Shown: positions 8,804 through 13,191 of the stretch, piece by piece | Numbering within the stretch: the stretch's first letter is position 1 | Layout: each line of letters starts with the position of its first letter | Source: Gammaproteobacteria bacterium | GTDB lineage: Bacteria; Pseudomonadota; Gammaproteobacteria; Steroidobacterales; Steroidobacteraceae | Direction: 5' to 3' | NCBI GenBank assembly: GCA_028870355.1 | Contig: JAGWPU010000087.1 | Coordinates: 1-64,000 of the forward strand | Length of the DNA stretch: 64,000 bases | The notes under the pieces: generated by a model | Databases searched by the model: none | Told to the model about the DNA's origin: nothing | Seen by the model: the letters and a program-made list of their open reading frames with translations, nothing else | Position numbers and translations under genes: made by a program

Positions 8804-9958
8804 TCAGATAACCGCAAGCCGCCTCGCGCCCTCGATCAGGGTCGCATCGTCCTTTGCGAAACTCATCCGGATCAATCCGGTATCCATCCCGTCGGCGTGG
8901 AACGCCGACAGGGGGATCGTCGCGACGCGGTGCTCGCGGATCAATCGTGCCGCGAAGTCGCCGTCGGATTCACGGCGCAGATGGTCGAATCGCGCCAACA
9001 GGAAGAAGCTGCCCCGGCTCGGCAGGAGGTGCAGTCGCGAATGCCCGAGATGCTCGACGAGCAGGTCGCGCTTTCGTTGGTAGAACGCGGCGAGCGATCG
9101 ATAGCTCGCCGGTTCGGCGAGCGCCTCGGCGAACGCCCATTGCATCGGCGTATCGGCCGCGAAGGTCATGAATTGGTGGATCTTGCGGATCTCGGCGGTC
9201 AGATCGTCGGGAGCCAGACAATAACCGACGCGCCAGCCGGTCACGTGATAGGTCTTGCCGAACGACGACACGATCACGCTGCGTTCCCGCAGCGCGGGAT
9301 GCCGAGCCATGCTCTGGTGAACGGCGCCGTCGAACACGACGTGCTCATAGACCTCGTCGGAGAGAATGACGATGTCGGAGTTCCGCGTGACCGCGACGAG
9401 ACGCTCGATGTCCTGCGCGTCGAATATCGTCGCGGTCGGATTGTGAGGGGAATTGACGATGATCATCCGGGTCTTCGCGGTGATCGCCGCTGCGACCTCG
9501 TCCCAGTCGATCCGGAAGTCGTCGGGCTTGAGCTTGATCGCGATCGCCTTCGCGCCCTGCACCCGCACGATCGGCGCGTAGCTGTCGAACGCCGGCTCGA
9601 AATAGATCACCTCGTCGCCCGGGTGCACGAGCGCGCTGAGGGTCGCGTACAGGCCCTCGCTCGCGCTCGCCATCACCGTGATCTCCCGTTCGGCGTCGTA
9701 GCGTGCGCCGTAGAGCGACTGCATCTTCCCGGCCAGCGCCTCGCGCAGCGGCGCGAGGCCGATCATCGGCGCGTACTGATTGTGACCGGCGCGCATCGCA
9801 TGCGTCGCGCGATCCACGAGCGACCGGTCGCAGGGGAAATTCGGCGCCCCCTGGCTCAGGTTCAGCGCATCGTATTGCGCGGCGAGCTCGCCGATGACCG
9901 CGAAGATCGTGGTGCCGACGTCAGCGAGCTTCGACCGGACCCGGCAAGGACTGTGCAT
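8804..9958 (-). CDS. PLP-dependent class I aminotransferase, methionine aminotransferase (YbdL) type
   Basis: Cytoplasmic fold-type I aminotransferase, 384 residues. Seen: substrate-binding start NLSQGAPNFP, PLP-contact ASASEGLYATLSALV, N173 in NSPHNPTATIF, D201 in LSDEVYEHV, PLP lysine K235 in SSFGKTYHVTGWRVGYC, and the carboxylate-binding Arg near LIRMSF. The SSFGKTYHxTxWxVGY block is very close to E. coli YbdL, a methionine/aromatic 2-oxo-acid aminotransferase, so methionine regeneration from 2-oxo-4-methylthiobutyrate is the best guess. Start ATG 9958 lies 15 bp after the DUF202 gene stop, so the two may be co-transcribed. Other kynurenine-type or aspartate-type aminotransferases are less likely. 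Confidence 0.86.
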   Translation of the reverse strand: MHSPCRVRSKLADVGTTIFAVIGELAAQYDALNLSQGAPNFPCDRSLVDRATHAMRAGHNQYAPMIGLAPLREALAGKMQSLYGARYDAEREITVMASASEGLYATLSALVHPGDEVIYFEPAFDSYAPIVRVQGAKAIAIKLKPDDFRIDWDEVAAAITAKTRMIIVNSPHNPTATIFDAQDIERLVAVTRNSDIVILSDEVYEHVVFDGAVHQSMARHPALRERSVIVSSFGKTYHVTGWRVGYCLAPDDLTAEIRKIHQFMTFAADTPMQWAFAEALAEPASYRSLAAFYQRKRDLLVEHLGHSRLHLLPSRGSFFLLARFDHLRRESDGDFAARLIREHRVATIPLSAFHADGMDTGLIRMSFAKDDATLIEGARRLAVI

Positions 9959-9973
9959 GCCGACCGTGCCCCG

Positions 9974-10366
9974 CTAGCCCGAGACCGCCAGCGTCTCCGC
10001 CAGGTAGACGAGCAGCGCCAGCCCCAGGATCGAGACCATCGCCGCGAGCAGCAGATCCGCCCGGGCGCTGTTCACCTGCTGCCGCTCGCTGTCGATCGCG
10101 CGCCCCGTGCGCATGAACCGCACCGTCGCGACGCTCACGATGAGCGTACCCGCGGCGATCAGTGCGAGTCCCGCGACGTTTCCGAACCCGCCCCCCGGTA
10201 CGCCCCGCGGCCTGATCCCGCTCGCCGCGAACGACTGTGCGGCGATCTTCAGGAACAGGTTGAACTTCGCGACCAGGAAGCCGAAGGCCATGACCGCGAT
10301 CGCGGTGCGCACCCACGCGAGAAAGGTCCGTTCGTTGGCCGCATGGTCGGAGAAATTTCGGATCAT
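9974..10366 (-). CDS. DUF202 (YidH-like) inner-membrane protein
   Basis: 130-residue membrane protein with about three transmembrane helices. The N-terminal signature [25 protein letters not shown] is the DUF202 hallmark. Function of the family is not established. Start ATG 10366 has AAGGAA about 8 bases upstream. It lies 15 bp before the aminotransferase gene on the same strand and 108 bp after the CBS-domain gene, so it could be the head of a two-gene unit or the tail of the metal-transport operon. Confidence 0.85.
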
Positions 10367-10474
10367 GAGGTGAGCTTCCTTTCGGCAGAGGATAATTCAA
10401 TATTCGGTCGCCGGGCGAGCCGACATCGGCATCCGGGCCCCGCGCCCGAGCGCGACGTGTCGACCGCGCCCCGC

Positions 10475-11728
10475 TCAGTGAAGCCGCGGGCGGGTACTGC
10501 GCACGTCCCGCCACGAGATCGCGCTCAGCAACACGTCGCGCTCGTCGACGATCGGCAACGCGCGAAAGCCGTAGCGTGCGAACATGTCCGAGGCTTCCCG
10601 CAGCGTCGCCTCCTTCGACAGCGTGATCACGTTGCTCGTCATGATGTCGGCGAGCGACTGGCCCGGCTCGGCGGCCACCATGTCGCGAATGTCCACGACG
10701 CCCTTGAGCGTTCCCGCGGCGTCCGTGACGTAGACGTACATCACCACCTCCTTGTCCTTCGCGAGCTCCCGGTATCGCGCGAGCACGCTCTCGGCCGGCG
10801 TCTCCGGCGGCAGGCGGATCAGCTCGGAGGAGCCGTACGGGAGGATGTGCTCGTCGTGATGGTCGATGATCTGTTCGACCTTCCGGGATTTCTCGCGGTC
10901 GAGGCGTTTCAGGATCGCGTCGGCCTGATCGGCCGGCAGGATCGCCAGGATGTCCGCGGCCTGGGCGGGGGTCATCTCGTTGATCAATGCGGCCGCACGA
11001 TCCTTGTCGATCGCCCGGACCAGCTCGCGTTGCACCCGCGGCTCCATCTCCTCGAGGGTCTCGGTCGCATGCTCCCGGTCTAGCACGTTGAACAGCGCGA
11101 CGCGCTGTCCGCCCTCGAGTTCCTCGAGGATGTCCGCGAGATCCACCGGATGGATCTCGGACAGCTGATCCTTGGACACCTTCAGCTTGATGTTCCCCTG
11201 GAAGCTGCCGAGGGTCTCCGGCAGCGGCTGCACGTAGAGCCACGACACCCGGCTCTGTGAATTTCGGGATGTCAGCAGCTTCGCGAGCCGCCGCAGCCCG
11301 AGCCGCCGTAGCGCCCGGTAATGGCTGTAGTCGACCTCGGCGGCGTAGAGCTTCGGATCCTGGAACGCCAGCTTGACGTCGTACACCACCTCGACGTCGT
11401 GATCGTCGAGATCGATGATCTTCTTGTCGAGGATGTGGTCCTTCAACAGGATCTGGGTGCTCTGCGGCGAGATCGCATACCGCTCCAGTTCGTCGGCCGG
11501 GAGATCGAGGATCACTTCGTGGTTGGATATCAGCAGGACCTTGTCCCAGGGCACGAGCAGGGAGGCGTATCCGAACGAGCGTCCGACGACCACGTGCGTC
11601 ACCTCCGGAAGGCGGGCGCTCTCGGCGATCGCCAGATCCTCGACCCGGCCGACGGCGCGCTTGCGCGCGAATACCTTGCGTCCGAGGATTTCACTGAGAT
11701 AGAACTCGTGCTCGAGAATCGTCGGCAT
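10475..11728 (-). CDS. Soluble PRC-barrel / MgtE-N / CBS-domain protein
   Basis: 417-residue cytoplasmic protein without transmembrane helices. Order: an N-terminal PRC-barrel-like region (about 8-90, FYLSEILGRKVFARKRAVGRV), a linker, an MgtE N-terminal-type helical domain (about 185-290, with HPVDLADILEEL, LINEMTPAQAADILAILP and LKRLDREKSRKVEQI repeats), and a pair of CBS domains to the end. In MgtE channels this N-CBS module senses cytosolic Mg2+ and gates the pore; here the pore domain is absent. It lies in one operon with a divergent NRAMP transporter and a 58-residue membrane protein, so I infer that it senses Mg2+ and regulates that transporter. The start is 4 bp after the small gene. 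Confidence 0.86.
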   Translation of the reverse strand: MPTILEHEFYLSEILGRKVFARKRAVGRVEDLAIAESARLPEVTHVVVGRSFGYASLLVPWDKVLLISNHEVILDLPADELERYAISPQSTQILLKDHILDKKIIDLDDHDVEVVYDVKLAFQDPKLYAAEVDYSHYRALRRLGLRRLAKLLTSRNSQSRVSWLYVQPLPETLGSFQGNIKLKVSKDQLSEIHPVDLADILEELEGGQRVALFNVLDREHATETLEEMEPRVQRELVRAIDKDRAAALINEMTPAQAADILAILPADQADAILKRLDREKSRKVEQIIDHHDEHILPYGSSELIRLPPETPAESVLARYRELAKDKEVVMYVYVTDAAGTLKGVVDIRDMVAAEPGQSLADIMTSNVITLSKEATLREASDMFARYGFRALPIVDERDVLLSAISWRDVRSTRPRLH

Positions 11729-11732
11729 CGCC

Positions 11733-11909
11733 TCATCCCCTGGTCACGATCCGCACGAAACCATAGACCATCAACAATACCAGGCCGATCAGGTACAGTC
11801 GCAGCACGAGGAGCGACCCTCGTACCGCGCCGGACATCGCGATTCGCGGCGTCCGATAGCGCGCGTTGATCTGGCCGATTTTCGTCAGCAGCGCGTGCAC
11901 CTTGTTCAT
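11733..11909 (-). CDS. 58-residue single-helix membrane protein between NRAMP and CBS genes
   Basis: Small unrecognised protein, start MNKVHALLTKIGQIN, with a basic amphipathic N-half and one transmembrane helix near the C-terminus (about residues 33-54, LLVLRLYLIGLVLLMVYGFV). ATG 11909 is 13 bp after the stop of the NRAMP gene; its stop is 4 bp before the start of the CBS gene, so it fills the gap in the operon almost exactly. No obvious Shine-Dalgarno beyond a weak GAGCGACGAG stretch; translational coupling is likely. It may anchor the soluble MgtE-N/CBS protein to the transporter (inference from position). The alternative is a chance frame, but the tight packing argues against that. Confidence 0.6.
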   Translation of the reverse strand: MNKVHALLTKIGQINARYRTPRIAMSGAVRGSLLVLRLYLIGLVLLMVYGFVRIVTRG

Positions 11910-11922
11910 GGGGACTCGTCGC

Positions 11923-13191
11923 TCACTGGAAGTAGCCGGGGAACAGCACGGTGATGCCGTACAGCGTGGACAGGACGATGATCGACACGACGATGCCGCC
12001 GCCGATGAGGTTCTGAACGGGCGTATTGCGGCGGTCGCCCATCGTGGCCTCGTCGTTCAGCAGCAGGATCAGGAACACCAGGGCCGCCGGCAGCAGCGTG
12101 ACCGCCACCACCTGCACGAACAGCGTGATCAGCACGAGCGGGGCCTTCGGGATCAGCACGATCGCGCCCGCGGTCGCGAGCATCGCCAGATACGTCGCGT
12201 AGAACCAGGGGGCCTCGCGGATCTTCGTGTTCAGGGAGTGGGCCCAGCCGAAGATCTCGCCGAACGCCCAGGAGCTCGCGAGCGAAATGCAGATCGCGCC
12301 GAGGAGTCCCGCATCGAACAGGCCGATCGCGAGGAGCGTCCCGACCCAGCGGTTCGTGGTCATGAGCTGCTGGGAGGCCTGTGCCGCGCTGTCGATGTCG
12401 ATGCCGGGGAGCACCGTCCCGGTCACGATCACGATGAAGATCGCGACGACGACCGTGACCACGGAGCCGAGGAAGGTGTCGAAGCGCCCCCAGGGGATGT
12501 CCTTCTCCTGCATCCCCTTGTCGACCACCGCGCTCTGCTGGAAGAAGAGCATCCAGGGGGCGATCGTGGTGCCGATGTTCGCCATCAGGAAGAAGAACAG
12601 CTGGCCGTTGAAGCCACCCGCGAAGTTCGGGATCAATCCCTCGTGCAGCACGGCCTGCATCGACGGGTGCACCAGGAACGCCCCGGGGATGTAGACCAGA
12701 TTCAGCGCGCAGAACAGCAGCGCGAGCTTCTCGAACGTCCAGTAGCGCCCGTTCAGCACGATGATCATCATCAGCGCGATCACGGCGATCACCGTCACCC
12801 ACGGCGGCATCCCGAAGATCGCGAGGGCCGCCGTCATGCCGACGAACTCGGTGACCAGGGTCAACCAGTCGACGATCAGCAGATCGAGGAGCGAGAACCA
12901 CCCCCAGAACGCGCCGAATCCATCGAAGATCGCCTCGGCATGACCGCGCTTGGTCACCGCCCCGAGCCGGACCGTCATCTCCTGCACATAGTACGCGACG
13001 GGAACGAGCAGCAGCAGGAACCAGATCAGGTGATAGCCGTACTTGGCCCCCGTCGCCGCATAGGTCGTGATGCCGCCGGCGTCGTTGTCGGCGACCATCA
13101 CGACCAGCCCCGGACCGGCGATCACGAGATACAGGGCGACCGCCTTCCAGGCTTTGCGCGACCAATAGTACAGTCGTGCGAAGAAATTCAC
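11923..13191 (-). CDS. Divergent NRAMP/SLC11-family divalent metal transporter, probably Mg2+-selective
   Basis: Inner-membrane transporter with about 11 helices, 422 residues. The fold is NRAMP-like (GPGLV...ADNDAGGITTY in TM1; TMANIG...-type TM6), but the metal-site motifs differ. TM1 has D35-N36-D37-A-G-G instead of the DPGN motif. TM6 has A211-P212-W213 where Mn2+/Fe2+ transporters have M-P-H; the Met is the soft-metal ligand. Loss of this Met is the mark of NRAMP-related Mg2+ transporters (NRMT). Together with the MgtE-N/CBS gene this suggests Mg2+ uptake (inference). The start is GTG 13191. A near-consensus sigma-70 promoter precedes it at 13235-13262. Confidence 0.9.
   Translation of the reverse strand: MNFFARLYYWSRKAWKAVALYLVIAGPGLVVMVADNDAGGITTYAATGAKYGYHLIWFLLLLVPVAYYVQEMTVRLGAVTKRGHAEAIFDGFGAFWGWFSLLDLLIVDWLTLVTEFVGMTAALAIFGMPPWVTVIAVIALMMIIVLNGRYWTFEKLALLFCALNLVYIPGAFLVHPSMQAVLHEGLIPNFAGGFNGQLFFFLMANIGTTIAPWMLFFQQSAVVDKGMQEKDIPWGRFDTFLGSVVTVVVAIFIVIVTGTVLPGIDIDSAAQASQQLMTTNRWVGTLLAIGLFDAGLLGAICISLASSWAFGEIFGWAHSLNTKIREAPWFYATYLAMLATAGAIVLIPKAPLVLITLFVQVVAVTLLPAALVFLILLLNDEATMGDRRNTPVQNLIGGGIVVSIIVLSTLYGITVLFPGYFQ

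Follow-up and report, generated by a model that had tools for sequence, protein, structure and literature searches.

The window, a stretch of DNA of 64,000 nucleotides, contains on its reverse strand a three-gene cassette which probably (roughly 0.6) specifies an NRMT-type importer of divalent cations, mainly Mg2+ and probably Mn2+ as well, equipped with a small transmembrane (TM) subunit and a Mg2+/ATP sensor. Four points are shown at the level of sequence, namely the identities of the genes, the conservation of the cassette, the one-to-one occurrence of small protein and transporter, and the presence of riboswitches on related cassettes. The following elements were defined:

10475..11728, (-) strand: gene for a soluble protein of 417 aa with PRC-barrel, MgtE_N and CBS-pair regions and no pore, the proposed Mg2+/ATP sensor
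11733..11909, (-) strand: gene for a small single-TM protein ('SM') of 58 aa, with Y18, L36-R37-x-Y39 and F51 invariant in an alignment of 28 rows
11923..13191, (-) strand: gene for an NRMT-type NRAMP transporter of 422 aa, GTG start, Pfam Nramp with 249 bits
13235..13262, (-) strand: sigma-70-like promoter before the operon, TTGATA-16-TATGAT

The genes are closely spaced, with 13 nt between the transporter gene and the small open reading frame and 4 nt between the latter and the sensor gene. The sigma-70-like site is located about 44 nt upstream of the transporter start; it was the only one detected in the 3.7 kb scanned, with 0.4 expected. Among 80 related loci the three-gene cassette was present in 79, and the remaining locus is cut by the end of its contig. 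Such a recurrence places the arrangement far beyond chance. The first-pass annotation had placed the transporter in an operon with a pore-less PRC/MgtE-N/CBS gene and had made its reading depend on a conserved three-gene neighbourhood. The operon was found as described (11728-10475, (-) strand, no MgtE pore), and the neighbourhood proved to be conserved. The 58-aa frame was absent from that description, though position 11733 is its end.

According to their record titles, the 80 relatives belong to Pseudomonadota, Chlorobiota, Nitrospirota, Chloroflexota, Acidobacteriota, Bacteroidota, candidate phyla, and methanogenic archaea, but single taxon labels need care because the records are mostly metagenome bins. 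Some bins that bear the labels of archaea or of candidate phyla with reduced genomes also contain the cassette (L109, 0.8 Mb; L105, 1.4 Mb; L082; L092); this suggests either wide horizontal transfer or contamination of bins. A search of viral contigs for relatives revealed none. Downstream of the sensor gene, at a distance of 108 nt and on the same strand, a DUF202 membrane protein is encoded (window positions 9974-10366, (-) strand). Near the cassettes, DUF202 was detected in 2/80 loci and an aminotransferase likewise in 2/80. Neither DUF202 nor the downstream aminotransferase was retained as a shared part of the cassette, and DUF202, given its rarity, is probably outside the system.

The transporter carries the residues D35-N36-D37-A38-G39-G40 in TM1 and T208-T209-I210-A211-P212-W213 in TM6, with no His in TM6. 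Identity with canonical NRAMP/MntH proteins was ruled out, since DPGN in TM1 and MPH in TM6 are both missing. That DPGN is absent, that A211-P-W replaces M-P-H, and that the Met is lost had been seen in the first-pass annotation and is correct for D35-G40 and T208-W213. The motifs are not a private divergence, as had been assumed there: DxxG-TxxA is the published signature of NRMT proteins. It was defined by Ramanadane et al. as DxxG in TM1 and TxxA/T in TM6 of PF01566 proteins (PMC8806188), and is found here as D37..G40 and T208..A211. Kinship to NRMTs, also claimed earlier, was corroborated by EleNRMT (7qia), which is the closest solved relative by sequence (E 5e-62, compared to 6e-12 for DraNramp) and the best fold match of the predicted structure (TM 0.83/0.87, 3.1 A). 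Signature and score together make the designation 'NRMT-type' well founded. The prediction shows 11 TM helices and an N-terminal helix. EleNRMT from Eggerthella lenta transports Mg2+ and Mn2+ and is not coupled to H+ (PMC8806188).

In a maximum-likelihood tree, the window transporter falls in a well-supported clade, in which no experimentally tested member was found. Together with three other groups this clade forms a superclade (95/95), and the small protein or a similar helix occurs in all of them. The sister of the superclade consists of transporters of the DTDxGS/AVIMPW type which keep the Met (96/93). EleNRMT groups with acidobacterial transporters that have the sensor gene upstream (97/92). 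By these sequence relationships, the window branch is sister to that of EleNRMT and separate from it. The genome harbors a second NRAMP gene (G000:C83:6587-7672; L002, L052), whose product belongs to the separate Met-keeping sister clade, with DTDVGS in TM1 and GAVIMPW in TM6; beside this gene, neither the small protein nor the sensor was detected.

For the 58-aa protein one TM helix is predicted. Its residues 1-28 include five K/R and no D/E, and this positive N-terminus suggests an inside location of the N-terminal end. Searches against Pfam, NCBIfam, and PDB yielded no match. The protein was detected in all 80 related loci, in 73 of them directly after the transporter gene and in seven (L127-L133) after the sensor gene. 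Within a same-phylum sample of 299 genomes, seven contain this transporter, and the same seven contain the small protein (E below 1e-6), always in the cassette. In an acidobacterial sample of 199 genomes, it accompanies this transporter type in all 11 genomes harboring it, and in three further genomes its neighbour is a DNDAGAVSTY-type transporter. Many acidobacterial genomes possess only the transporter type with the sensor gene upstream, and there the small protein is missing at comparable scores. Every strong match in the 299 and 199 genomes adjoins such a transporter. At two DNDAGAVSTY loci, L165 and L167, the small protein is present and the sensor gene was not detected, so the transporter is more likely its partner than the sensor.

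More distant traces were found among NRAMP relatives. In L040, L041, and L043, which are of the GDNDAGAFGTYTQAG type, the transporter is considerably longer at its C-terminus and ends there with a helix resembling the small protein; judged from their sequences these may be natural fusions of the two. In L042 and L044 a small frame follows directly downstream of the transporter. Each of the five scores is weak by itself (E 8e-4 to 0.24). Among the 7,666 frames, however, these five come next in rank, all of them are correctly placed, and chance matches start at E 2.

Other transporters with single-TM small proteins are MgtA with MgtS and KdpABC with KdpF. AcrZ, a tiny one-helix protein bound to one transporter, AcrB, is a further example (PMC7267776). 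The likeness to these proteins is one of form. In contrast to them, the gene described here belongs, in many phyla, to the operon of its transporter, and some relatives appear to carry a similar helix, with the weak scores given above, as a C-terminal fusion.

The 417-aa protein comprises PRC, MgtE_N, and CBS domains and is devoid of the MgtE pore domain PF01769. In the predicted model the CBS pair occupies residues 293-417, residues 185-413 match the cytosolic domains of MgtE (Foldseek E 2e-18, VIA-align Z about 20), and the PRC-barrel region is located N-terminal to the MgtE-like part. It thus shares the N domain and the CBS pair with the MgtE channel of Thermus thermophilus (TtMgtE), but has neither plug helix nor pore, contains the PRC-barrel region in addition, and has lost several acidic residues. 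Among 72 family members, the columns of TtMgtE E59, D95, and D247, presumably assignable like the other acidic residues to particular Mg2+ sites, are acidic in 96, 88, and 97%, while the acidic residues at D91, D214, and E216 are lost and that at D226 is mostly lost. In the window protein, E223, D259, and D408 correspond to E59, D95, and D247. The ATP contacts of TtMgtE are Y170, R187, and D188 (PMC5529423); in the same 72 members, the first column is Y in 100%, the second mostly R/K, and the third acidic in 92%. From the kept and the lost site residues, sensing of Mg2+ and ATP appears plausible but altered.

Pairing of NrmT genes with an adjacent gene for an MgtE N-domain, observed for most members, was already reported by Shin et al. 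in 2014, who speculated that the MgtE fragment has a cytoplasmic feedback or chaperone role (PMC4072509). The combination of transporter and sensor as such is therefore not new. Characterized NRMT/NrmT proteins (EleNRMT; Ca_c0685 and Ca_c3329 of Clostridium acetobutylicum) have in common with the window transporter the SLC11/LeuT-type fold, DxxG-TxxA, and the absence of Met and His from TM6; most NrmT loci have an MgtE-N gene nearby, as does the window, and M-boxes occur in relatives from the window clade. The window differs by belonging to a sister branch, by the gene order NRMT-small protein-sensor, and by the small TM protein, which is not mentioned in PMC4072509. In Acidobacterium capsulatum, the NrmT Acp2977 also has a pore-less MgtE-N/CBS protein as neighbour (Acp2976-Acp2977), but there the sensor gene comes first, no riboswitch is present, and the transporter is likely one for Mn2+ (PMC4072509). 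Acidobacterial loci of this arrangement in our sample, among which Acp2977 itself was not identified, are without the small protein. Acp2977 fully rescued an Mn2+ mutant, whereas an Mg2+ mutant was rescued only at millimolar Mg2+, and addition of the MgtE fragment did not improve Mg2+ rescue; in the C. acetobutylicum tests NrmT by itself, without the MgtE fragment, transported Mg2+ (PMC4072509). An M-box upstream of the gene was recommended by Shin et al. as the marker of the Mg2+-specific NrmT subset (PMC4072509). Literature searches revealed no description of small proteins encoded in NRMT operons, and no paper in which NRAMP is combined either with 'MgtE intracellular' or with the set of MgtE, CBS, and PRC. 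As far as this literature shows, the family of small proteins and its strict association with one transporter branch are new compared to the 2014 work; the M-boxes before related cassettes, the position in a sister branch of EleNRMT, and the site residues retained by the sensor are further additions.

The window itself contains no M-box riboswitch. An Rfam scan of 60 clade relatives revealed M-boxes upstream of the transporter gene on the same strand in six (L090, L091, L100, L103, L131, L133), 300-520 nt away from it and with 133-147 bits (cut-off 44). These loci carry the labels of several different phyla, and the deepest split within the clade has some of them on either side; L103 also possesses an intrinsic terminator behind the aptamer. 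Only one further M-box was detected in the 60 loci, a second one in L091. The M-boxes before six of 60 related cassettes support Mg2+ as the ion. Family searches of the own genome did not detect CorA or the MgtE pore (PF01769), and an MgtA-type ATPase is present, so that the cassette is not the sole Mg2+ importer of this genome. Of 44 cassette genomes, 21 have CorA above the cut-off, 29 have MgtA, and 7 have the MgtE pore, whereas 8 have no member of these families above it; as the genomes are drafts, the absences are soft. CorA in 21/44 cassette genomes stands against 190/299 in the phylum sample, a comparison which is unmatched and does not constitute proof. Site signature, riboswitches on relatives, and importer inventories speak for Mg2+, and Mn2+ is likely to be transported as well. 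The Mg2+ role proposed in the first-pass annotation is consequently retained as likely on the basis of the signature, the M-boxes in 6/60 relatives, and the lack of an own CorA or MgtE pore. Its derivation from the lost Met is overstated, since Mn2+ transport by EleNRMT and the behaviour of Acp2977 show that a missing Met alone cannot establish Mg2+ as substrate.

The main rival to the Mg2+ reading is an importer mainly for Mn2+ (or Fe2+) with an NRMT-like site, whose MgtE-like protein has another ligand and senses Mn2+ or a nucleotide. Precedents exist in the complete rescue of the Mn2+ mutant by A. capsulatum NrmT, a protein with an MgtE fragment as neighbour (PMC4072509), and in EleNRMT, which carries Mn2+ with a Km of about 120 uM (PMC8806188). 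The DxxG/TxxA/T site is shared by the acidobacterial relatives with the CBS gene upstream, the sister branch keeps the Met in TM6, and for Mg2+ this genome can rely on MgtA. Against this, six members of the clade itself are under Mg2+ riboswitches of the M-box class, the very marker of Mg2+ specificity recommended by Shin et al., and in eight of the 44 cassette genomes no known Mg2+ importer was detected apart from the cassette. An importer mainly for Mn2+ or Fe2+ is considered rather improbable.

Somewhat less improbable, yet still unlikely, is that both partners of the transporter, the small protein and the CBS protein, serve its biogenesis or stability, acting in assembly or turnover, with no ion-dependent gating. 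At L165 and L167, where the CBS gene is absent, the transporter still has the small protein beside it; this fits the possibility, as does Mg2+ transport by C. acetobutylicum NrmT in the absence of the fragment (PMC4072509), but a mere scaffold would not need the acidic and ATP-contact residues of TtMgtE which the CBS protein keeps. Hardly credible is the assumption that the small frame is open by chance and that the pairing involves two genes only. With 58 aa and no annotation in family libraries it might be taken for noise, but it is conserved at the protein level with invariant residues, in many phyla and archaea and in 80/80 loci, and in the two genome samples no genome that has this NRMT type is without it, and strong E-values were obtained in no other place. 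The interpretation as noise was dropped.

For the preferred reading, a regulated importer mainly of Mg2+, we infer the ion, the formation of a complex, the direction of regulation, and proton independence as follows. A partly hydrated ion would pass a site composed entirely of hard ligands, D37, T208, and backbone oxygens, at which G40 and A211 would leave room for water, and transport would probably proceed without proton coupling. The 58-aa protein may act as an accessory TM subunit packed against the transporter with its N-terminus predicted to be inside. The MgtE-derived cytosolic PRC/MgtE_N/CBS sensor would bind Mg2+ and ATP and close or down-regulate the transporter in the replete cell. 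As co-expression had no effect in 2014 (PMC4072509), feedback gating is put forward only as a proposal, and the same holds for the idea of the first-pass annotation that a sensor module uncoupled from its pore has been lent to the transporter. A more far-reaching interpretation is offered tentatively, and we consider it doubtful rather than probable: the 58-aa protein would found a new family of obligate TM subunits through which an MgtE-derived Mg2+/ATP sensor, now detached, is physically connected with an NRAMP-type carrier, resulting in a three-part, feedback-gated Mg2+ importer whose gate is a separate protein and which has spread between phyla and domains.

NRAMP carriers have generally been studied as single polypeptides. 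In one large branch, a small TM protein accompanies the transporter one-to-one, and a Mg2+ sensor module is encoded in the same operon; this suggests that transporters of the branch function as part of a complex. For the question raised in 2014, the role of the MgtE fragment for NrmT, the small protein would represent a missing component, and the co-expression test of that time may have been performed on a branch without it. The analyses also extend NRAMP transporters linked to Mg2+ riboswitches to a branch for which no tested member was found, and the cassette is a probable route for Mg2+ where a genome has no recognised CorA, MgtE pore, or MgtA. The second M-box of L091 (8793-8960) is located directly after the cassette and is followed by a gene for an outer-membrane porin of the OprB family (9046-10515), a sequence arrangement suggesting that expression of this porin is controlled by Mg2+.
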